Shown here: positions 7,843-62,762 of the stretch, in pieces | How the letters are laid out: each line of letters begins with the position of its first letter | Position numbering within the stretch: the first letter of the stretch is position 1 | From: Favolaschia claudopus | Lineage: Eukaryota > Basidiomycota > Agaricomycetes > Agaricales > Mycenaceae | NCBI GenBank assembly: GCA_037176885.1 | Contig: JAWWNJ010000132.1 | Coordinates: forward strand, 496,001 to 560,000 | Direction of reading: 5' to 3' | DNA length: 64,000 nucleotides | Made by a program: the position numbers and the translations under genes | The notes under the pieces: model-generated | Database searches by the model: none | Told to the model about the DNA's origin: nothing | The model's input: only the letters and a program-made list of their open reading frames with translations

Positions 7843-9147
7843 TGTCGCAAAAGCGTCGATTCGTGTTATTGGGGGCTGGGAGGGCATACGAGGCGGAGGA
7901 GAGAGCAGAAAATCAGAAAAAAATGAGCAGAGGGTGTTCTAAATCTAAAGATAGAATGATTCAGCCCGAAATTCCCCAATAAGCGAGATATGCCAAAACG
8001 AACCAGATCTCCCTGAACGCTTTCAGCCGCCCTGTCGCCTCCGAGATCGCTCCATAATCATTCGTCGTATCGTACAAACTTGTTCTAACAGATTGATGCC
8101 GCATGCCCGGGGTCTTCGCCTTCGATTTCGAATTTTTGCCCGATTGCCCAAAGTCGCCGTCTTCACGGATCCAGCGGCCCTGAGTGCCCAATTACGCTAG
8201 AGTAGGACTGTAATAAGCACTAAATGTATATGGGTACTCAACTGGGACCCCCCAGCCAGAAATCCAGCGAAACGAAAAAAAACACGATGAAGGTGGGAGC
8301 CAAGGAGTGATGACCTTCCTATTCAGGCTTCGGGCGGTGAACTGTCAAAATCTGTTTGGCAGTGTTTGTGCACGGCTTGGTTTCTCCCGCCGCCACCACC
8401 TCCGAAATTTCTCTATCACTCAGCTTCGCGGCGGCACTCTGGCGGACCCGGCAATGACTGCTTGGACCTGCGGCATTTAAGGTCCCCGTCTCTCGGCATC
8501 TAATAGGTTGCTTGGAAGGCACTTGAGCGAAAAACCCTTCCATACGCGCATTTGCGAATTGCGATGCCGTATGCCTCCCTAGCTCGTTCTGGCGTCACTA
8601 GGGCTGCTGGGCTCTGTCTATTTTGGTTTTTGGCTGACTCGCACCGCCGACTTCGCCCCGATCTCGACCGACTTCCGTCGGGATGTCGTTTGCACAAAAT
8701 GGTTGCTTCTCCGGCGAAATCGTCGAGTTTGGGGTAGCTTTGTTGAATTTAGGATAAAGTGAGTTGCCATTATTGTTGTTAAGCTTCGTTTCTTTGAGGT
8801 CCTTTCCGCGTTTGGCTCAAATTATATGCTGGATTCTCGATTACGCTGAAAACATGTTCAAGTTATCTCGCTTTCTCAAATCGTCGATTGTGCGGCAGGG
8901 ATATCAGGGTTGGTTAGATTTGATCTTCTACTTCAACCCTGGTATGTGATCCCGAGTTCTTTCTCTGTTTCACTCAGATTTCATTCTAGACTCTTAACGA
9001 TCGTTGCACTTGCCAAACATATTCTCCAGTTTGACTCAAGTTCTCGAGCACTCCTTGAGGAATTTTTGATCCGGGGCAATGGTGAGTTATTTTTGATTGC
9101 TCAATCTCGTTTCTTCAACCTCGGGCTCCTTAAACATTTCCATTTCA
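7843..9147. repeat. Copy A of a 1.3 kb dispersed repeat
   Basis: These 1,305 bp are almost identical to 59,915-61,222 in the same orientation, with scattered substitutions and a few short indels (for example a 6-bp CCGTAT insertion and a 3-bp gap in the other copy). Similarity starts abruptly at TGTCGCAAAAGCG and stops after CATTTCA. The TG...CA ends resemble an LTR, but neither copy has a matching 5-bp flanking duplication and no polyprotein lies between them. Short minus-strand frames (8543-8319, 8697-8500, 8191-7961) are preserved in both copies at similar length, with no known domain. Confidence 0.85.
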
Positions 9148-9234
9148 TATTGAGCTCCCGCGTGGAAACAGGCTTATGAATCATCTCTGTGGAGAGCCGG
9201 CGGAATTCAAGTTTTCAAGTTGCGAAAAGAGAAG

Positions 9235-25063: not shown

Positions 25064-25342
25064 TGGGTGGTGGTGATGGTACAAAGAGAAAACGAGCGTG
25101 AGATCTTGGTTGTCAATCACGTGCCCTTGAATGGTCACACGATCACACTTTTTTTTTGTATCAGCATTTCTATACCGCAACAAGTACACTAACTACTAAG
25201 ACGCGGTGCCACAAGGGCAATAAATAGTGAAAGGTAGCTCTAGAGGGGAGTCGTCCGTAGTTGGTAGAGTATAGTCTCGGAGTGTAATGTAGTAATGTGA
25301 ATTTACGGGTATAGCGGCGGATGCATGAACGCATAGGCCATT

Positions 25343-25409
25343 AGTCCGTTTTTAAGATCAAGGCCGTGTAAGGAGTGGGATTTGGATTATATAATTTTTG
25401 GTGGCGGTG
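25343..25409 (+). repeat. Left 67-bp terminal inverted repeat
   Basis: Begins AGTCCGTTTTTAAGATCAAG and ends TTTTTGGTGGCGGTG. It pairs with the reverse complement of 31,500-31,566 with three mismatches and no gaps. It lies 122 bp before the helicase ATG. Confidence 0.9.
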
Positions 25410-25530
25410 CATGACGGCATCACGCGTCTTGCCTTCGCTCTTCATCTTTCTTGTTTCTATCCACGCGTTTTCAGCTATTACTTGTATATTCTACCTGCTA
25501 CTCTTCAACTATACATGGGCCCCTTCTTAG

Positions 25531-27774
25531 ATGCCTTCTAGACCCCTCTGGAAGGACGAAATCGGCCGCGAAACTATCAACAGCATCGTAAAGAAGGTCA
25601 TACCCGCCTGGACGCAAGGACTTCGTCCATTTCAGCTGGATCTTGTCGCACCGCTTCTCGATGGAGATGATATCCTATGCTGCACGGCAACAGGCGACGG
25701 AAAATCGGCAGCGTTCTCGGTTCCCTTGCTAGTTCTCAACGAATATAACTCAAATCCGCATCTTTATCCTCGAGGACTCGACACGCGCATTGGACCAATG
25801 GGAATTGTCGTCACCCCAACGAAGGGACTTGCTAATAATATTGTGCGTCGACAGTGGCTCTGCACCTTCACATCTAAATGGCGCACCCTTACAGGTCTTT
25901 GAACTGTCAAAACTCGGAATCCATGGGTTTGCGTACTGCCGCGAGTCATTGGCTGACGCACGACGCGCCGGAAACGATCTGACTTCTCTCATAAAGTCCG
26001 GTACAAAATGGCAGGTCATCTGCGTGGACCCAGAACATCTACAAGACAAAGAATGGCGCGTCATCTCAGATTCTCCTGTATTCCGTTCGAAATTGCTCTT
26101 CGCTGCCGTGGACGAGGTACATTTGATACGGGAGTGGGGGGCAGATTTTCGCATCGCTTTCAACACTATTGGGCTCTTCTTCCGCGGTCGCTTTCCTCCC
26201 TCTACCGCCATTGTCGCTCTCTCCGCCACTCTTGCTCCAGGACCCGAAACATCCGCTATCTGTAACTCTCTCGGCCTCTTTCCAGGCGCTTTCCATCTTA
26301 TCCGACGATCGAATGAGCGCCCAAACGTACAGCTTGTCATGCAGACTTTAACACATGGCATCGGCGGAGAGGACTTCCCGGATCTCTTGCCCTACATAAA
26401 CAGTGGTCGTAAACTATCCATTCTCTGCCCGACTATCGACCTCGTTTTTCGCGTTTTCGTGTACATCTGGAGATTGCAAACTTCGAACACAAACAAGTTT
26501 CGCCGGATCCGCATGTACGACAGCCTATGCCCAGCTAAATATAACGAGAAGACTATCTGGCTCGTGGACAACGACCCTCACTGTCAAATAATCGTCGCGA
26601 CTATCGCTTTTTCGAACGGGATCAATTGCCTATCGCTGCTGGACAACATTCTGCTCACTGTACCTCGAACGTTCAATAATGGAATACAGCACTTGGGACG
26701 AGGAGTACGAATTCAGGGCTCACTTGGGCGTGGTGTGTTTTTGGTCCAGTTGAGTTCCATCACAGCTGCGACGAAACAATTGAACGGTAATTTCATATCG
26801 AGGTCTTGGCGCAATTTGTTGATCCTTGGACATGACAGGTACTGCGGTCATTTCCAGCCGGCCCAAACCAGCGAACGGAAAGACAACCCGAGTAAAGAAG
26901 CCACCCCCACCGATGGAACTTGTTCTTGCTCAATTCCTGGTTGAAAAACAACAAACATTACACCAATCCCCCAGTAGAAACTTCGACCGAGGACTGTGTA
27001 GCTGCCAAACGATTGCTCCCCTGCTCCCTTTGCCTCAAGCGCTCGGATGAAACCATTGAGTTCACCGCTCCAGCCTCTTCCGCATTATTTCCCATGCTAA
27101 CTCCTGCCTCTCGACCTCGCGTTGCGGTTGGCACAAAGTTGACGAAGAGGGAGCAGGAGATGGCTCTTTCTTGCCTCAAATCGTTTCGTGGGGATTTACT
27201 CAGACAGGAACAGCGTTCTGGAAGGTTTCGGCACCATCCACTCACCCTCTTTCTTCCGTCCTCGATCCAAGACGCTATCCTTGCTAGAATATTGTCTATT
27301 TCATCGCCAGCCGATCTAGACATGATCGTTTCTGCGCACCAGTGGTATCACCACCCAACACACACTCCCTCCCTATATAATGTCGTTACTAAAATTCAGC
27401 AGAAGATTAACGATCGCCGAGAGAAAGCTCGATTAAACAAGAATCGCAAAGCAAGGGAGACGCGAAAGTCTCGAAAACGAAAGAACGACGTCTACGATTC
27501 CGAGGTACCTGATGATCATGATGAAGAGGATGAAGATGGTGCAGGAGACAACGAAGCGGAACAAGGAGAAATTTTTGCGGCCAGGATATCAGACGAACCC
27601 GACAACACTTTCCCGGAATCGCTATCGGTGCCTACGGCTCGCCCGCGGAAACGGCAAGCTCTTGAGCAAGTGACGAATATTGCGACGACCAAATCGGACC
27701 GGCGAACGGTCACAGAAATAAGCAAGGATTACGGGCCCGGATATCAGAAGCGAGTGAGGCAGGCGAGATCATAA
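25531..27774 (+). CDS. RecQ-like superfamily 2 DNA helicase encoded in the TIR element, one probable frameshift
   Basis: ATP-dependent helicase with the SF2 motifs in order: motif 0-like LRPFQLDLVAPLL, Walker A TATGDGKSAAF, Ia VVTPTKGLANNIV, CVDPEHLQ, motif II AAVDEVHLIREWG (DEVH in place of the usual DEAH), III VALSATL, IV LSILCPTIDLVF, V IIVATIAFSNGINC and VI QHLGRGVRIQG. Introns lie at 25,843-25,894 and 26,787-26,838. After FLVEK near 26,944 the frame must shift by one base, in an A5 run, to continue into AAKRLLPCSLCLKR and a long basic/acidic tail ending at 27,774. No RQC or HRDC domain is seen; the C-terminal region instead has a CSLC pair and coiled, Lys/Arg-rich sequence. A role in element replication or excision is inferred from position. 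It could also be a captured helicase without a transposition role. Confidence 0.75.
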
Positions 27775-27834
27775 TTGTTTTGAATATCTCTGTTTCCTCG
27801 CAGCATGTACATTACTGATAGCAATGAAGGGTAT

Positions 27835-30800
27835 TCATACATCAGTCTCAAGAAAATCGGCGTCCCCTTCGTCATCGTCGTCGTCCTCCTGCTCGACTGA
27901 CTCCTCCTGAATTTCCTCTTCCTCATCATCTTCGTCGTGCTGCAAACCAAACTCTTCGTCCACGTACATCACCGCCTGAGAACCGCTGAAGAGGGTAGCA
28001 TCCGACATATCTACACCATCGTTTTCGGGTTCGTTTGGATCCACTTCATTGATAATCGATTCAACAGAGGCGATGCTGCGATTGCTGGCGCGGGAGGAAG
28101 TGGTGGAATGAGAGCTTGAATGCTCACCACTGGACGTGCTCGGAGTTGGGGAATCAGATCTGATGTCCTGGTCGTCCGCTGTGTGGTTCTGTTCGTTGAG
28201 CATGAACTCCTCGTCCGACATGGGGTCGGGTTCATCTGGTCTGAGGTCTTCATCTACTCGGGGTTCGCGTTCATTCGCATTCGGTTCGGCTTCGTGCAGT
28301 GTGGACGTGGAATTCGGGGCATTGGGTTCAGTCGGATCTGGTGTGTGAGCATGGTGCCGCTCCATTTCCTGAAAGAACTCTCCCAAACTGGTCGTCTCCT
28401 TGATAAAAGCAGCTAATTTTCCTCCCTCCAGCTTTCGACAGCCACGAGCGAGTTGATTTACGGCCGCATGTCCCATCGAACGACCAGCCCGGAATAAATG
28501 AACCTCTTCTTCCTTGAAAAGTCTGAGCAGAAGCTGCATTTCGGCTCGTTGGTGCGGAGCAGTGTGAATTTTGCTCCGGCGACGAAGGTTGAAAGCTGAT
28601 TCGATTTCTTCCTTGAATCGAAGGAAGTGCTCTACATTTGGGGATATCGTTTTGCGGAAGAAGGGATCATCAAACTCGCCTCCATGACGTCGGGACATGT
28701 CTTGCAACCAGAGGTTGTAGTGCTCTTGTTGGAGGTCGCCAGGTATATAGTTTCCGAGTTCGTCTTTGACTTTGACCAATAAATTATCGAGTATCGCGTC
28801 GTGAAGTCCTGTTGAGGCCTCGTATCTCAAGAGACAATACATCTCCAACAAATACTTCACATAGTTCTGGTGGGATGAGCCTGCGAAGACGAAAATCCAA
28901 ATCTAAAAGGTTCGATTGTCAATCTGCCAGCGCAATGTACACATCAACTCACTTTGAATATTTCCCAAACTCTGCCGATATCGCCTTCAGGCACCGCCCA
29001 AGCCATTTCTAGCCACCAGCCGAATTCCGCCAAAAATATCTGGCTGTTTCGCAGTACACGGTCTCCGGTGAAGCCAGGTTTTTCTTCATGTACTTTTGGC
29101 TGGTCCGGAGTTCCTTGGCTGGTCAAAACGTGAACGATTCAGTGATGTTCTCGAGAAAGGGAAAAAGATCTACGCTTGATTTCGAACACCCGAATTACCA
29201 GGTCCGTTCCAAGGACTTCCGATACTAATTGGGTTCGGATTATGCGTGCCAACGGAATCCACAGTACGCATTGAGTTTTGGATCGCTGCCTGTGATGTGT
29301 ACCGGTCGACGAGAGTGGAGGCGGAATCGAGGATGTACTCGAGATCGGGGAGCTGATTTCGGTTCTTAAGGTCCTGGAAATATTTTTCGAGGTCGTCGGT
29401 ATCGAAGAAGACACTGTGTTAAGAGTCAGTTCAAGCTTTAAACAACAGTCGAGGACTTACCGCCAGCAATCGAGCACATGAGCCTCCCAAATCAACGTAA
29501 GATTGCGAACAGTAGGGTAGTAGTCGCATTTCTTGACGTTTGAAGGTCGTTTCAACCCAGCGCAGCCTGAGGCTTTGGAGAGTGATGATGGATCTGACGA
29601 TGTTGCCGGTCCGTAGTGATTTTCGGCCAGACAGTTGAGGTTGGTAGCGCCTGTATGCCAAACCTCGGGAGTTGTAATTTTGTTGCGGAAGTCGCCAGGA
29701 ACCGCGCAGTAGCGTGAAAGCCGGAGGATTTGATAGTATGATGCGCCATCGCCGCGCACCCAGTGGAGGAGGTCTGGATACTTCTCAGCATCTACGCCAA
29801 TTTGGTGTTCGAAGTCCTCGATTGCGCGCTTCATCCCATGAGCTTCAGTTTCGCACTCGGAATTGAGCATGAGAGGTTGAAATTTTGTGCGCGGGCGGTC
29901 ATCGGGCATGCGCCTCTTGGCAATGGGGGAGGTGCGGAAGCGGGATATGATCTGTTTGCGGAGGGGTTGAGCGGCGAAGCAAAATCGACAAGCACTCGCG
30001 CCCAGTGCAGACGTTGAACCTGATCTTGGTGATCCCAATCAATGTCGTCGAAAAGGGAATGTACCGTCAGGTTTCGCCGGTCCTTGAGAGCGACACGAGC
30101 ATGATAGTCGCTCGCACTAAAAGCTCCGGGGGCACAGCCATGCAAGGAGATTTTGGTCGCCGCAGTTCCGACCTTCATACGGCTGTGGCGACCAATGCCT
30201 TGCTCGTAGACATAGTCGTATTCCTGCACGTTATCTAGAATAGTCGCGTGCTCCACCTCTCCGCGAATGTTAGCAGCTTCGGTCTCCGCTCGCATTTCAG
30301 CGGTATCTGCGTCAGTCATGGAGATCAGTGCCGTCCGAGCAGTCTGATCTGCACACAATTGCCCAGGCGACAATATATTCGTTTGATATCGACGTGAGAC
30401 TTGCAAGCAAAGGGCCAGATGCCGAAAAGCATGGCGAAATAGCCGGTTGCGTAAGGATTCCGGGAAAGGATGAAGGAGCCCAACGCGGCAACTTGAATCT
30501 ATTCGGCACATGAGCTCCAACCATTTATCAAAAACCGCGACGTACCATGGGATGCGGACGCCGTTTCCGCACGAAAAAATCTCCATCAACTTTCGGCGCC
30601 GCCATGAATTGGGTGAGGAACATAGGTAGACTGAGCTTTGCCAAGAACTTTTCGGCCAGAGCCTCAACACTAAAGTTCGCGAAGTCGTTCCAAGTAACAA
30701 CGTGCGCCGTGGTGTATCCGCTACCGTTACTCGACGCGCGCAGGCGAACATGAGATTCGTCATCATCTGGATCCTCAACCGTAGCAAATCCAATCTGCTT

Positions 30801-31386
30801 CCGAGCCTCAGCCGCAACAAGTCTGGTTGCCCAAGTCGAAAGGAAAGGACGAGCATGGTGAAGAGAGTCGGGTTCGGTTGTGGTGGAAAACATGCATCCG
30901 CGCTCGTCAACGCGAGGCGAATCCTTCGCCGGGAAGCTACAGCGATGCCGGTAAATGAGAGGCAGGATGTCAGACATCTTGACATTGGTACGCCCGCGAA
31001 GAAACAGCGCGACAGAATGAGCGTGCGTGGAGCCACGGGGATCCGGCTGGTCTCGAGCGCGGTTATGAAACAGAATAGCCAGCATATCTCCGATAGAATC
31101 AAAAGGAGAGTCCTTGAGGAAAGAATCCATAGCCTCAAATTTCTTTGCTAAATTCTGAGCGGCTGTCTCGGCGGCCGTAGGCCTGCGCGGTTGTTGGTGA
31201 GGAAAATCTGGGTCAGGATTGGTAAAAGGTGGGGGGTGGGGGCGTCCAAGACGACGGATCCGCTCGATAGAGTTCAGCGTTGGACGGTGGAACGGGTATA
31301 GATGGGGTCGGGTTTAATGGTCGATATTTCAGCCTGTTATATGCTCGTTTCGGGGGAACTGGGGGCAGATTGGAGCCGGAATCCAT
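27835..31386 (-). CDS. DUF6589-like protein of the TIR element, candidate transposase, probable frameshifts
   Basis: About 1,100 aa over five or so exons. Recognisable blocks: MSDILPLIYRHRCSFPAKDS and FLSTWATRLVAAEARKQIG in exon 1; ILDNVQEYDYVYEQGIGRHS, KVGTAATKISLHGCAPGAFS and SLFDDIDWDHQDQVQRLHW; WVRGDGASYYQILRLSRY; PEVWHTGATNLNCLAENHYG; LIWEAHVLDCWR; IWIFVFAGSSHQNYVKYLLE and RSMGHAAVNQLARG. The last 130 residues are acidic. I recognise the order as DUF6589, a basidiomycete family. Three single-base shifts are needed: near 31,230 in a C run, near 30,357 in TGTGTG, and near 29,965 in a C run. The start at MDSGSNLPPV (31386) fits the first block. Asp and Glu in ILDN, RGDG and IWEAH could form a DDE-like triad, which is speculation. 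It faces the helicase gene end to end. Confidence 0.65.
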
Positions 31387-31499
31387 TGAATAGATGATAT
31401 ATAAAGTCGCAGTACAGTAGAGAGGGTACAGAGGGTCCAGGAATCTAGGCAGGACGCGTCGTGAATGGGAGGAAGAGAAGAGAAGCTGCTGCCGTAAGA

Positions 31500-31566
31500 C
31501 ACCGCCACCAAAGATTATATAATCCAAATTCCACTCCTTACACGGCCTTGATCTTAAAAACAGACT
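31500..31566 (-). repeat. Right 67-bp terminal inverted repeat
   Basis: Reverse complement begins AGTCTGTTTTTAAGATCAAG and ends ATCTTTGGTGGCGGTG. It differs from the left TIR at three positions. It lies 113 bp upstream of the proposed DUF6589 start. Confidence 0.9.
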
Positions 31567-31965
31567 TCAACACGATCGAGGTACGAGGTCAAAGGTGTTG
31601 AAGGCTGGCTTTGAGAGACTAGCAAAAGCCTGAGCAAATAGTTCTGTTGTGAAAGCAGAAAACAAGAGGAATTTGAATGAATTATAGTCGTTGGCAGCAA
31701 TAAATTCGAACATACTTACACTTTTGTAGCTCAGCAGAGCGCGAAGAAACGTGGAGGTTTCGGCGAATCAGGTGTAGAACAATTATCCAGATTCCGATAG
31801 CTGAGGCTGACAATGAGACACTGCGGGAAGCATTGGAGGAGCTGGAAAGGGTTGACTTTGAAGGACCAGCGAGAGGCAGCAGAGCGAACAGAGATTGGAT
31901 CAAGTTTTCGGGAAGAGGAGAGCACGGAGGCTCCGGCGAAGGCTCCGTCAATTGCCTAAACTAAT

Positions 31966-32289
31966 TTAATTCCGCCACATTTGAACCAGGGTTGCCTCAG
32001 GATCGACATTCCGCACACATAGAGGGGTAGAGGTATCCAATGTAGCATGTCCAAGGACATATTCAGCGCACCACAGTAAGTAGGAATATAAGGAGACAGA
32101 CTTCAGGTCGTACTTGAGGAGCCTGTGGCGGAGCCGAGGCGGGGACAACATATGAGGAGGTTCTAGCAACCAGTGGAGGGTCGCATAGGGGTCAATGACA
32201 ACGTCGCAGTAAAAGCGAAGGCCAAGACGAAGGCGGCGGAGGCTTGAGGAAGGCACACGGCATTTCCCGTTCGGGAAGACGCCGATCAA
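31966..32289 (-). pseudogene. Possible F-box/LRR protein C-terminal fragment
   Basis: A 107-codon minus-strand frame with natural composition (SLRRLRLGLRFYCDVVIDPY, ATLHWLLEPPHML, SVSLYSYLLWCAEYVLGHAT) reminiscent of the C-terminal repeats of agaricomycete F-box proteins. Stop codons follow at once, and further plausible residues in other frames (31,925-31,731) suggest decay. No start or F-box is attached. Confidence 0.3.
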
Positions 32290-36600: not shown

Positions 36601-37311
36601 CTCCCGGACGGTCCCGCTGCCGCTACGTCGAAGACATTCCGATTTGTCACGAAAAGAGGTGTCCTGACTCTTCTTCTCTCCCAGTTTCTCCCAACGACCT
36701 GTAGCTGGATTTTTAAGACGGAGACAGCTGGTGGGGTATGCTATAACTAGCATAGGGATCAAAGAGAGCCAGGGTGGTGTCTGAGGCGGTAATGCGGTCG
36801 CCAAGAAGAGAAGACGGAAGGTGACGGGAAATGCAAGCGAAAGTGCAACGAAAGTGGTATCGGAATGCGATAAGGGAAGCGCTGGTGCTTCAAACTCAGG
36901 CCGTGCCGTGCGGTCCGGGAGGAAGAGGTGAAGAGTGTGGGTGTGGAGGCGGCAAAAACAGCGGCAAGGGCATGATACACCAAAGTGCGAGGTGAGGCAC
37001 CGGTGAGGTCCGTCCGGCTCGGAAAGCGGCAAGGAGCTTGCGGGAATCCGTCACAGTAGCACGTGACCTGTGACCAACACGTTTGCCGTCAACCAGTCGA
37101 ATTTGGGGCGAAACTCAAGCTCGGTCGACGAACGGCTTGACTGCTTGACTCTGCATTCAAATCGCTCTTGTAATTCAACTTCAATTTTCTTTTCCCAGAC
37201 TTGTGTGCAGCCAAGTTTCCCGACTTCTTGACAAACTGATCAGTAATTCTCCAGGTGTTTTCTTGCGGGTCCACATCTAGTAGATCTTGACTAGTACTAG
37301 TCTGGTATACG
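33665..37311. other. GC-rich stretch without a confident gene
   Basis: Many short frames on both strands, none with a recognised domain. The longest plus-strand frame with an ATG-like start is at 34,946-35,512 (for example FTLLIGIFPTHFDRGLLYLM); no partner exons are evident. Composition resembles 11-18 kb. Confidence 0.4.
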
Positions 37312-40116
37312 ATGTTTGAAACACTGCCAGAAGCCACGATCAAAATCCAAGCTTCCCCCGCCGACGAATCTTTTCCGCCCCCTTCCGATTTCGATGCTTT
37401 GAAGGCTCGACTGAAAGAGAGCCCACACGACCCCGAGTCTTGGAAACGTTTTATCGACGTTGCAGAGTCCAGTGGCAATGGCTTCCAAATTCGCGAGGCA
37501 TATGAAGCCTTGCTCAAACAATACCCCAACACTGCGTCGGCACAGATAGCGTACTTGAAACACGTCCTCAATCGACGCGTCTCGATGACGACCGACGTCG
37601 AACAATTGCTTAAGAGGTTTCTCAGAACTTCGCCCTCCGTCGAACTCTGGCGGTTCTATCTCGACTACGTACTCCGTGTGAACGTCACACCCTCACCGAC
37701 AACGCGCGAAACTGTGCGCAAATCGTACGACTATGCGTTGAGCCGCATCGGCTATGATCGCGACAGTGGATCCGCGATATGGGCCTCCTACATTCAGTTT
37801 CTTCGCAATGCCCCTGAAGGAAGCACGTGGGACAACCAACAAAAAATGGACGCCATCCGCAAAGCACAGAATCAAGCCGTCCAGCTTCCGCTGGACAATG
37901 TCGACCAGTTGTGGGCGCAGCTGGAATCCTACGAGACCTCTTTAAACAAGACTACTGCCAAGAAGATTATGACAGACCTTTCGCCTGCGCACATGCAGGC
38001 TCACACAGTGCTTCGCCAACTCAATATTCATCTTCAAGGGTTGGGAACCTCCAACACCAACGGGATCTTCTTGCCTGCTCCACCTACTTTTTCGGCCACA
38101 GAGCGCCAACTGATCGGGCGCTGGAAGTCGTACCTGAAGTGGGAGGAAGGAAATCCTCTCGAACTGGAGGAGAAAGACCGAGCCACTCTCGTTGCTCGTG
38201 TGGAACATGCTTATCGCAAAGCTGTCAGTTACTATTCTGAAATATGGTGAGTCCCGCTTCGTCTCCATGTTCTGCTTTCTCAACTCGACAGGTTCATGGC
38301 GTACACCTGGTGCACTTCCGTCGGACGAAATGCGGAAGCGCTTTCTTTTCTCAGATCAGGCCTCGAAGCAAACCCTGAAAGGTACGTATCCTACGCTTTT
38401 CGGCTACCACCGGCTAACGATGGTTCTCAGTTTTGTCCTTACTTACGCCTACGTTGAGCTGTTGGAAAAAACCGAGCTCAAAAAGGATCAGCGGGACTTC
38501 AGCGCGGTTCACAGCGTATATGAGCGCTTCATTGGTGGCCTACGCGCCCATCTCGCGCGTTTAACGGAACTAGCAGCCCAACTAGATGCCACCGGGAAAG
38601 CGTCAACCGAGGAACCCAAGGATGAAAACGGCAGTCTTGAAGCAATCCGCACAAATCCCGGAACTACAGCTCCGGATTTGAACTCTCGATACCAGGCTGA
38701 ACTCATTGAACGCAAGCGGCATTACGCAAACGCCTGGATTGCCTACATGCGGTTCGCCAGGCGGACTCAAGGACAGACAACCTGTCGTGAAACTTTCTCG
38801 AAGGCACGCAAAGACGAGTACGTTGGATGGGAGGTGTATGAGGCGGCTGGTGTGTCGCGAAATGTTCATGTCGTTTGCTGTGTTAGACGTTGATCTTCTG
38901 TAGCGTTGACGGAATACCGCTGCAACTCAGAAGACGGGCGCCTCGTTGCGTCGCGTATCTTTGAGACTGGGATGAAGAAGTTCGGTACTGATGCATCCTA
39001 CGTCCTGTCTCATCTCAACTTCCTACTCACCGTCAATGACGAGAACAGTACGTTGCGTCGCTTTCGTTGTTTTTCAACGAGCTATGTGAGTGACTTTGCT
39101 GTGCAGACGCGCGCGCGCTTTTCGAGGGTGTCATTGGGACATTCACACCCGCCAAGGCGAAGCTTATATGGGAACGTTGGTCGCGCTCGCAATACCAATA
39201 CGACGACCTTGAAGCTGCTCTGGAAATTGAGCGGCGTATGGCGGAAACGTACCCGGGCGGTACGCGTCATTCCATCACTTTTCATTGTTTTCACCACATA
39301 GATCTTCGCTGCGCTTCCTCTTTACGTTTCCTATAAGAGCTTGGATCGCATAGTTCCTGAACTTTCTTGCAGACACCCCGATTAAACGTTTTGCTCAGCG
39401 GCACACTTACCACCAAACAGATGCCATAGCAGCGGTCGACCTTGGAGTCATGAAAAACAAAAAAAAGTCAGTCGCAAACCCAGGGACATTTGCTAACCAT
39501 TCTTCTTATCCTCCTTTGGACAGAAATGATCCTCTTGTCGCTAGCACTAGGAACACCGTAAGCGTGAAACTCAATGAGGACGGTCCCGCTGCAAACCCGT
39601 CGGTCCCCAATTCCAACAACAAACGCCCTCTACCGCCTCCGGAGTGCATACCGACCGCGTACAAGCGACATAGACCTGACGAACGAGAGCGTCGGAGGAG
39701 TCCACCGCCTCCACCGCGACGTGACCGTCCGAAAGAGGAGAAACCCATTGGTCTCCCTGCCGTGCTCAGCTGGTTTGTCACCCAGCTTCCCCCCCCCGAG
39801 ACATTCGATGGTGCGTTATTTCACCCGTTTTCAGAGATAACCGTTTACTCACTCATTGCCACAGGCCCTGTCTTTGATACGGATAATCTCATGGACACAA
39901 TACGAACCGCAGTGATACCCAGCTCAACCCGCCATGTGCGATCCCCTCCTCCGCCACCTCAAAAATATCGATCTGGTACGTTATCGGTGTCATTTCGTGT
40001 CCTGCACCCTTGTTAATCAAATTCTTTCCACAGCTGGATCTGGAAGGCATTCGCCCGATTACGGGCCATACCAAGGTCCACAGAGCGGTCCTTTGAGGGG
40101 GCGGCGGTACCCATAG
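37312..40116 (+). CDS. RNA14: mRNA 3'-end processing factor Rna14 (CstF77 homologue), multi-exon, intact
   Basis: Rna14 is a scaffold of cleavage factor IA, which directs cleavage and polyadenylation of pre-mRNA in the nucleus. The N-terminus shows HAT-type helical repeats with aromatic spacing (RLKESPHDPESWKRFIDVAE, YEALLKQYPNTASAQIAYLK, LRTSPSVELWRFYLDYVLRV, SAIWASYIQFLRNAP). After introns at 38,247-38,291 and 38,382-38,430 come WFMAYTWCTSVGRNAEALSF, RRTQGQTTCRETFSKARK, ALTEYRCNSEDGRLVASRIF, MKKFGTDASYVLSHLNFLL and AKLIWERWSRSQYQYDDL. The C-terminus is Pro/Arg-rich (RRSPPPPPRRDRPKEE), then GLPAVLSWFVTQLPPPETFD and YGPYQGPQSGPLRGRR. All junctions keep frame. The start at 37312 gives the expected N-terminus. 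This is a conserved host gene and anchors the locus. Confidence 0.9.
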
Positions 40117-57929: not shown

Positions 57930-58790
57930 AGCGAAAGGGACGCGTCGGACGCGCCAAAAACGACGGTTAAACGAGGGCATAGGGTAGAGAAGGCCGGGGT
58001 GACGCGTCTGGGGTGGTAGAAGGCGGGAAAATACTGGAACGAACGAATATGGGGGGTGGCGCGGCGAGGTGTTTGTTGAGGGCGAGCGAGACGCGTCGGA
58101 CGCGCCAGAACAACGTGTGGCGTCGAGAAGAGGTAGAGAATGTTGGGGGAGACGCGTCTGAAGGTCTGAAGGGCGTGGGTAGGCCGGAATACGCTAAAAT
58201 GCCGGGGGCGGGGGCTGGGTCGCCGATCCACCGAATCCAAGCGTGCTGCGACCGCCAAAACGACGGTGGACGTCGAGCAAACGTATAAAATGCTGAGGGT
58301 GAGGTGTCTGGAGGTCTGAAAGCAGTGGGTAAGCCGGAATACGCGAAAATGCCGGGGGGCGGGGCTGGTCGCCGATTCTACCGAATCCAAGCGTGCTGCG
58401 ACCGCCAAAACGACGGTGGACGTCGAGCAAACGTATAGAATGCTGAGGGTGAGGTGTCTGGAGGTCTGAAAGCAGTGGGTAGGCCGGAATACGCTAAAAT
58501 GCCGGGGGCGGGGCTGGGTCGCCGATCCACCGAATCCAAGCGTGCTGCGACCGCCAAAACGACGGTGGACGTCGAGCAAACGTATAGAATGCTGAGGGTG
58601 AGGTGTCTGGAGGTCTGAAAGCAGTGGGTAGGCCGGAATACGCTAAAATGCCGGGGGCGGGGCTGGGTCGCCGATCCACCGAATCCAAGCGTGCTGCGAC
58701 CGCCAAAACGACGGTGGACGTTGGGAGAAGGGTACATAATGCTGAAGGTGAGGTTGCTGGAGGTGTAGAGGGCACGGAGAAGCCGGAATT
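57930..58790. repeat. Tandem array of about six 150-bp units
   Basis: The segment GCGTGCTGCGACCGCCAAAA recurs at 58,241, 58,391, 58,540 and 58,689, giving periods of 150, 149 and 149 bp. Two more diverged units upstream carry GACGCGTCGGACGCGCCA at about 57,939 and 58,090, again about 150 bp apart. The four downstream units are nearly identical. Because the period is near 50 codons, long minus-strand frames run through the array (for example VLAVAARLDSV repeated), but they show no independent sign of being a gene. Confidence 0.9.
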
Positions 58791-59914: not shown

Positions 59915-61222
59915 TGTCGCAAAAGCGTCGATTCGTGTTATCGGGTGCTGGGAGGGCATACGAGGGGGAGGAGAGAGCAGAAAATCAGAAAAAAATGAGC
60001 AGAGGGTGTTCTAATCTAAAGATAGAATGATTCAGCCCGAAATTCCCCAATAAGCGAGATATGCCAAAACGAACCAGATCTCCCTGAACGCTTTCAGCCG
60101 CCCTGTCGCCTCCGAGATCGCTCCATAATCATTTGTCGTATCCGTATCGTACAAACTTGTTCTAACAGATTGATGCCGCATGCCCGGGGTCTTCGCCTTC
60201 GATTTCGAATTTTTGCCCGATTGCCCAAAGTCGCCGTCTTCACGGATCCAGCGGCCCTGAGTGCCCAATTACGCTAGAGTAGCACTGTAATAAGCACTAG
60301 ATGTATATGGGTACTCAACTGGGACCCCCCAGCCAGGAATCCAGCGAAACGAGGAAAAACACGATGAAGGTGGGGAGACAAGAGTGATGACCTTCCTATT
60401 CAGGACTTCGGGCGGTGAACTGTCAAAATCTGTTTGGCAGTGTTTGTGCACGGCTTGGTTTCTCCCGCCGCCACCACCTCCGAAATTTCTCTATCACTCA
60501 GCTTCGCGGCGGCACTCTGGCGGACCCGGCAATGGCTGCTTGGACCTGCGGCATTTAAGGTCCCCGTCTCTCGGCATCTAACAGGTTGCTTGGAAGGCAC
60601 TTGAGCGAAAAACCCTTCCATACGCGCATTTGCGAATTGCGATGCCGTATGCCTCCCTAGCTCGTTCTGGCGTCACTAGGGCTGCTGGGCTCTGTCTATT
60701 TTGGTTTCTGGCTGACTCGCACCGCCGACTTCGCCCCGATCTCGACCGACTTCCGTCGGGATGTCGTTTGCACAAAATGGTTGCTTCTCCGGCGAAATCG
60801 TCGAGTTTGGGGTAGCTTTGTTGAATTTAGGATAAAGTGAGTTGCCATTATTGTTGTTAAGCTTCGTTCCTTTGAGGTCCTTTCCGCGTTTGGCTCAAAT
60901 TATATGCTGGATTCTCGATTATGCTGAAAACATGTTCAAGTTATCTCGCTTTCTCAAATCGTCAATTGTGCGGCAGGGATATCAGGGTTGGTTCGATTTG
61001 ATCTTCTACTTCAACGCTGGTATGTGATCCCGAGTTCTTTCTCTGTTTCACTCAGATTTCATTCTAGACTCTTAACGATCGTTGCACTTGAACATATTCT
61101 CCAGTTTGACTCAAGTTCTCGAGCACTCCTTGAGGAATTTTTGATCCGGGGCAATGGTGAGTTATTTTTGATTGCTCAATCTCGTTTCTTAAACCTCGGG
61201 CTCCTTAAACATTTCCATTTCA
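59915..61222. repeat. Copy B of the 1.3 kb dispersed repeat
   Basis: Direct-orientation partner of 7,843-9,147, starting TGTCGCAAAAGCG and ending CATTTCA, 1,308 bp. Flanks of the two copies differ completely, so this is a dispersed family and not a segmental duplication of larger extent. See copy A for internal frames. Confidence 0.85.
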
Positions 61223-62762
61223 ATTTGAGTCCGGGTTAATTTTCTCGTTCAATTGATTAGAGGTCAAGTTTTGGCTTTGGCGCGAAAAAACCCGTCATCG
61301 ATGTGTTCAGATTATTACAGACGATGGCGCTGATGCGCCGATATCACCACCTCGACTATCTACGACGTTATCTGGGAGCGGCGTCCCAGAATAACTCGTC
61401 AACCAGGCTCGTTTCCGTTTACCATAGATAATCATAATCCAACTGACTCGACTGTTGCTTGGCAGAAACGTCACACCATCGCATCTCCAGCGCAGGGCAA
61501 GCAGATTGAAATCACGAATTCTTCCTTTGAATTTGTTTCGTTTGTCTGGCTTTCGATCACTGCGGGATCCATATCGTATTTGCAGACCAAGTTTCCTTCA
61601 CAAAGGTAGACCTCGCTTTCATTTTGTTTTCCACTGTCCAGGCTGAATGTTCCTTTATTCCAGTAAAGCCTATTCGAACACACATGCGACGTTACACTCT
61701 TGATTCGAAGTCAACAAATTCTGAGATGATTGTATGGGTTTCATTCTATGTGCGTGAAGGGTTACAATGCTCGTATCGAACAGATACTCATATCATCTTG
61801 CGGGAAGCGTCTTGAATTCTACCTCAGCCCCGCCCTCAATTTAATTCAAATTCAACCTTGAGTTTCCTACTCGCAGTAACAAATCCGACCTGTAAATTTG
61901 TCATTCATAATGGCATTCATCGTCGAACAGAGCTGTTCATTCGAGGTGGAAAATTCTTTGAGAGTTTTGCTGCGAGCGGTGGATTGAGATGGAACCGAGA
62001 AGGGCGAAGATGTGGCGTCTCCGATATGAGAAGAATGTGGGTAGTCAAGCCGATGCCGAATTCTCTGGGTTCATTCAGCCGAATTCGAGATATGGAGCTG
62101 AAAACATGGTTGAACGTACGGGTTTGAATTGAAACAGATCCATGAAGAATTGCATGCCACAAGGCGCAAGTCTAAGTGGTTTTGGCGAGTATGATCAAGC
62201 CTCGTGAGTGGCAAAGAATAAATAAACAAGGAGTCAATGGAGGACGACATTCGGTTATTCCTGGTGTCGTAGACGGACTCGGAGAAGGTATTGCTTGACA
62301 ATATGACCAGACTGTGTTCGGGGGCGGAGATCGGGACGGACCGAAGCAGTTTGAAGAACGGCGATCCACAGTCCAGAAATCCGAGCAGCGAAGCGGTTTA
62401 TGGTTGAGAGTCGAGCATTGGCAGTTCTACTCTTGCAGATAGAACCTTACAGCGCGGCGCGACGTCGTTTCCAAGTAAAGCCGAATCATCCCTCCTCTGG
62501 GCCAGAAGGTCGTCGAAGAGGTTCGAGTCGCTTGGCGCATCCACATCGATTCTTCGAAGTCCAAAGTCAGCGCCGTCTCGGATGCAGCAGGAGAGAATAG
62601 GCGCGAACGATTGGCGGGCATTTTTTAAATAGAATTTCCAGCTCTCAAAGACGCGCCTGTGAGCGAGACGGAGCAGAGCTCACGCAGGCTCGCCATGAAA
62701 CGACGCGTTATTTGCGTTTATGTACGCGATTGATGGAATGATCGCCGTGACGTGACTTTTTG
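61223..62762. other. Region without a confident gene
   Basis: Short frames only. A plus-strand stretch near 61,466-61,610 reads RHTIASPAQGKQIEITNSSF and EFVSFVWLSITAGSISYLQT, which is protein-like but isolated. Confidence 0.3.

Follow-up and report, generated by a model that had tools for sequence, protein, structure and literature searches.

A probable AcademH-type transposon pairing a RecQ-like helicase with a DUF6589 protein in Favolaschia claudopus

The primary account of AcademH transposons is reportedly Kojima 2020 (Mob DNA 11:15); the comparison made here draws on passages in papers that cite AcademH. These give target duplications of 9 or 10 bp for AcademH and of 3 or 4 bp for AcademX (PMC10045372), attribute DEAD and Helicase_C domains to AcademH, KolobokH or Helitron, and describe AcademH as low-copy in Basidiomycota, Ascomycota and Mucoromycota (PMC10799480). 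Recognisable domains, e.g. PF00270 and recQ_fam, are counted in 81% (1,568/1,938) of fungal Academ copies in a passage of PMC6416283 (2019). KolobokH is described in the passage available as reported from fungi only, with a RecQ helicase downstream of the transposase domain (PMC9587614). Putative non-autonomous insertions, both of Mutator-like elements (MULEs), whose transposase domain is given as PF10551, and of Academ, are described elsewhere as widespread in Marasmius oreades (PMC8290104). Here we analyse 64,000 nucleotides of Favolaschia claudopus DNA (contig JAWWNJ010000132.1, positions 496,001 to 560,000; 'the window' below), in which a two-gene element at 25342-31621, copy A of a multicopy family, is very probably a cut-and-paste DNA transposon of the AcademH type. 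Literature searches for Academ in Mycena and for transposable elements in F. claudopus found nothing.

Limits and genes of the element

The features of copy A are listed in window coordinates.

25342..31621: whole element, 6,280 bp (TAGTCC ... GAGACTA), ends set by comparison of copies
25343..25422, + strand: left long inverted-repeat arm, terminal; flanks diverge between copies right outside
25531..27774, + strand: RecQ-like superfamily 2 (SF2) helicase gene, in pieces 25531-25842, 25895-26786 and about 26950-27774
27835..31130, - strand: DUF6589 (PF20231) gene, putative DDE transposase; start codon at 31130 or further upstream; two frame changes
31487..31566, - strand: right long inverted-repeat arm, subterminal
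31561..31607: terminal hairpin, arms 31561-31573 and 31595-31607, from DNA folding and covariation
31567..31621, - strand: one-sided terminal extension of 55 bases, ending GAGAGACTA; counterparts in the related elements C53 (DUF side) and C52 and C98 (helicase side)

The initial annotation of this locus described 67-bp inverted repeats identical at 64/67 positions (95.5%). They exist as quoted and, when extended, form arms of 80 nt with 91% identity, the sole inverted pair of at least 60 nt in the window (16-base seed). The same annotation took the repeats as the ends of the element, which misplaced its limits at 25343 and 31566. On the left side, the flanks of the compared copies differ immediately outside TAGTCC; on the right side, all 17 compared ends carry a further 54-55 common bases and diverge after GAGAGACTA (flank-sharing loci excepted), which rules out the 67-bp repeats as the termini. 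The element therefore extends from TAGTCC at 25342 to GAGACTA at 31621, and the long repeat is terminal at its left end and subterminal at its right.

The gene content was recognized correctly from the start: a helicase gene (+) and a gene for a DUF6589 protein (-) converge between the repeats. The window helicase is 99% identical to each of two F. claudopus proteins, P0099 and P0100. P0100 matched E. coli RecQ (1oyw; E 3.8e-11) and, as its best NCBIfam match, TIGR00614 recQ_fam with E 2e-22, below the family cut-off. In a Pfam scan of eight reading-frame pieces (E up to 0.1), PF20231 was the only strong non-helicase domain, and it was found on two pieces of the second gene (E 3.7e-34 and 3.2e-32). 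The reading frame of this gene shifts twice in the window copy, near 30352-30364 and 29963-29984, with no intron-sized gap, and the gene may be disabled or contain assembly errors. The predicted structure of a DUF6589 homologue has a DDE-type fold, with D284, D446 and E729 (P0002 numbering) as candidate catalytic acids, which suggests that DUF6589 is the DDE-type transposase of the element. PDB sequences searched with a profile built from the DUF6589 alignment gave no match, and no sequence relation to the hAT (Hermes) or P element transposases, which act without a helicase and make 8-bp duplications, was found by profile search. The relatives listed by three protein searches (98 of 98, the best 120 of 230 and the best 120 of 131) were all either fungal or without a species name, and animal Academ was absent among them.

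Copies, insertion sites and class

The assembly (264.6 Mb, 460 contigs) was searched with the 67-bp arm as a DNA query. Forty matches were listed (40 of 43 candidates scored), so the repeat is not restricted to the window, and we examined the eight strong matches, the paired weaker matches on C50 and C1, and 12 of the 28 single 53-bp matches. Copy B, at C132:563402-569682, is 99.67% identical to copy A across the full same limits. Partial copies lie at C132:621876-624589, C132:627045-629122, C152:215354-217434 and on C265, and a stretch of C245 is 99.9% like the C152 copy. Copies of the repeat without linked genes, which had been named in advance as a finding that would refute the initial reading, do exist, but those examined are short derivatives of 503-517 bp, and one of 890 bp, with the same ends as the element. 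Fourteen of 30 non-autonomous loci were examined (L015-L028). Both ends were recognised in 13 of them, and 12 of these have an exact 9-bp target duplication; because seven loci have one flank in common, this corresponds to six of seven distinct sites. Gene-less derivatives of this kind are what is expected of a transposon. The seven loci with the common flank (L018, L019, L021, L022, L023, L027 and L028) all hold a 503/504-bp derivative, which has therefore been carried along inside a larger repeat. Paralogous empty sites were found for both of the sites searched, on C186 (99%, 266/300 bases) and C48 (82%), each with a single copy of the 9 bp at the aligned junction, with one base difference.

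PF20231 had at least 117 matches in the F. claudopus genome (102 of 601 candidates scored) and none in 14 control genomes, and the helicase P0103 had at least 93 matches (86 of 312 candidates scored). The matches were merged into 102 DUF6589 loci and 69 helicase loci, a pair was defined by a distance of up to 8 kb, and the expectation was taken from uniform placement. In this genome the two genes are neighbours beyond chance, with a DUF6589 locus close to 23 of the 69 helicase loci versus 0.46 expected; 23 is an undercount, since neither copy A nor copy B has its DUF6589 gene among the matches listed. Fifteen of the pairs are convergent, eight divergent and none same-strand. The three other convergent pairs whose ends were examined (C98, C52 and C53) all have TAGTC...GACTA termini and a 9-bp duplication (CCTTCGGTC, GCGGTAGAT and GGATGGCGT respectively), and complete two-gene elements therefore insert with target duplication. 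The DUF6589 proteins P0012 and P0065, apparently encoded on C98 and C53, are 56% and 42% identical to the query. In protein lists, 25 of 136 DUF6589 proteins are apparently on the same contig as one of 120 listed helicases (21/98 plus 4/38), where contig identity is by proxy, the 4/38 were counted by eye and a common contig does not amount to adjacency. Locus tags of the two genes are adjacent in Stygiomarasmius scandens and four apart in Psilocybe cyanescens. The divergent pairs (C22, C26, C29, C42, C59, C73, C117 and C20), seven of which have helicases only 25-29% like the query (50% at C20), suggest a second lineage with a different gene layout; a 601-bp piece of C29 that was examined contained no convincing terminus.

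We assign the element to AcademH, as a probable member, because of its 9-bp duplications (six of seven derivative sites and three of three other two-gene elements), its SF2/RecQ-like helicase and its basidiomycete host; the assignment is one by traits. The DDD/E transposase of AcademH would have its counterpart in the predicted DDE-type fold of the DUF6589 homologue. Likewise, the fungal Academ copies of PMC6416283 contain DEAD/DEAH (PF00270) and recQ_fam within the element, and recQ_fam is also the best match of P0100; the passage in question is silent on end structure and gene layout.

Four other readings have to be weighed. It is unlikely that the element represents an undescribed class of two-gene transposon, in which DUF6589 is not an Academ protein and the likeness in helicase and duplications is coincidental. 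In its favour, the link to Academ is one of traits rather than of sequence, and DUF6589 is absent by name from the literature searched, where a missing Pfam label says little. Published AcademH, as far as it is described in the passages cited above, nevertheless shares three traits with the element: duplications of 9/10 bp, a helicase and occurrence in Basidiomycota. The initial proposal of a DNA transposon with two genes, one of them for a helicase, holds, but its description as a new class is not supported, since the passages of PMC10045372, PMC6416283 and PMC10799480 place helicase-bearing AcademH already in print. A KolobokH element, from a RecQ-bearing Kolobok lineage of fungi, is very improbable. 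The target duplication of Kolobok is TTAA, whereas the duplications of the present elements are 9 bp of varied sequence. KolobokH does encode a RecQ helicase and is reported from fungi only, but the passage places the helicase downstream of the transposase domain (PMC9587614), whereas the genes here are separate and convergent. A MULE would also combine a long terminal inverted repeat (TIR) with a 9-bp duplication but carries as little weight, there being no MULE transposase domain (PF10551) in the Pfam scan of the eight reading-frame pieces. To our knowledge, pairing with a helicase is not a MULE trait either.

Weighing against a transposon, neither of the two full copies of the window family (A and B) has a target duplication, and this agrees with a helicase-bearing genomic island or a host gene pair that chances to lie between repeats. 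Such an island, also considered in the initial annotation, is the least credible reading of all: the locus is a compact, repeated two-gene unit with defined ends, a second copy, non-autonomous derivatives and empty sites. At C98, C52 and C53 this gene pair also lies between 9-bp duplications, which refutes an island as a general account. Helitrons likewise are transposons that combine a helicase with a terminal hairpin, but they make no target duplication, lack a TIR and encode an HUH Rep domain; the elements described here have 9-bp duplications, long inverted repeats, a DDE-type predicted fold and no HUH domain in the Pfam scan. The element is not a Helitron, in line with the initial annotation.

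For an AcademH-type transposon, the DUF6589 transposase would pair the two ends, cleave at TAGTC/GACTA and join the ends to the target with a 9-bp stagger. The helicase could assist by opening the DNA of the ends, possibly at the one-ended hairpin, or in the processing of donor or target gaps. As a class the element is ordinary; the one-ended hairpin may be new, as may the reading of DUF6589 as its transposase. The latter points to a possible role for a so far uncharacterised Pfam domain with at least 117 matches in a single genome, and the locus is a reminder that mushroom genes annotated as 'RecQ' or 'P-loop' helicases can belong to transposons.

The one-ended hairpin

In the window family, C53, C52 and C98, extra bases lie outside the long repeat at one end. 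The window family and C53 have them next to the transposase gene, whereas C52 and C98, which have similar ends, have them on the side of the helicase. Outside the repeat, the tailed end has 54 (window), 55 (C53), 56 (C52) and 55 (C98) more bases than the opposite end. The window hairpin, folded as DNA, has -14.2 kcal/mol (z -3.58; 0/200 shuffles). With RNA parameters, folds of the longer tailed ends were not significant against mononucleotide shuffles for the window (z -0.9), C53 (0.63), C52 (-0.06) and C98 (-0.17), four non-significant results of seven, and the best fold of C98 was another structure. A stronger test of the hairpin is the covariation count, carried out on seven sequences (the four elements and three window-type derivatives) with 500 shuffles. 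The 13-pair helix is 97.8% paired over the seven sequences, from which it was itself picked, a choice that favours it on cells paired; it has 14 cells changed on both sides and a covariation score of 0.476 versus 0.150, with slid versions reaching at most 0.194 (0/500 shuffles for each of the three measures). Less decisive are the six of 13 pairs changed on both sides, matched by 22/500 shuffles, and eight further pair types, matched by 68/500. A 22-base tail motif of the C52/C98/C53 type has 850 genome matches with at most one mismatch and none when read backwards.

AcademH, as described in the citing passages alone, differs from the F. claudopus elements in that the latter have a one-ended hairpin extension outside the long repeat and that both convergent and divergent gene pairs occur within one genome. 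A literature search for Academ with a hairpin or terminal inverted repeats, the wording of which probably also caught 'academic', gave no Academ hairpin among the titles listed. A covariation-supported hairpin on one end only, on either side, may be new.

We tentatively suggest, by analogy with the 12/23 rule of RAG/Transib, that the ends may be functionally unequal, though we regard this as somewhat less probable than not. A short end, on which the TIR is terminal, would be paired with a long end, in which a conserved hairpin outside the TIR would hide an inner copy of the terminus box (AGTCTGTT). The long end, on either the helicase or the transposase side, has a near-constant 54-56 extra bases (about five turns of DNA), and the self-encoded RecQ-like helicase would work on the hairpin. 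Such a layout, if real, would be without a described precedent among eukaryotic DDE transposons. A requirement for the one-ended hairpin, should there be one, would account for the helicase cargo and give a testable end-pairing rule.

Flanks of copy A and other features of the window

25149..25341, + strand: left flank, high-copy repeat piece broken at the element
31622..32122, + strand: right flank, low-copy sequence, uninterrupted at C88, C13 and C185

The left-flank repeat continues beyond the junction in three examined copies, two exact at the junction and one with small differences. On sequence grounds, copy A is a chimera that joins two different broken targets, and it has no target duplication because its left and right flanks come from different targets. 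Ectopic recombination between two insertions would give this pattern, and so would a misjoin in which the assembler passed from one locus to another within 6.3 kb of nearly identical sequence. That copies A and B lost their duplications through a simple inversion was rejected, since the swapped flanks, compared by eye, fail to match too. No reciprocal partner flanks for the C132:627045, C152:215354 and C265 copies were found among the loci examined.

The partial copy at C132:627045 shows a situation like that of copy A: C132:627045-667830 and C152:215354-256196 are a common 40.8-kb segment that starts exactly at the right terminus of the transposon. Identity is 99.5% where compared (first 26 kb and last 1.7 kb) and the sequence outside differs; the segment edge is a rearrangement or misjoin breakpoint at a transposon end. 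The C265 copy has a 4.9-kb insertion inside its left end (L010 932-5809), flanked on each side by the same 7 bp of the element. The insertion has inverted terminal sequences (AGTCCATAATG...) and is a nested transposon.

Elsewhere in the window, direct repeat pieces at 7843-9154 and 59915-61229 span 1.3 kb each, with 96-99% identity, and lie 52 kb apart. A tandem array with units of about 150 bp occupies 58055-58721, and a host-type gene at 37291-38247 encodes a Suppressor of forked-like protein (PF05843, E 3.5e-70).
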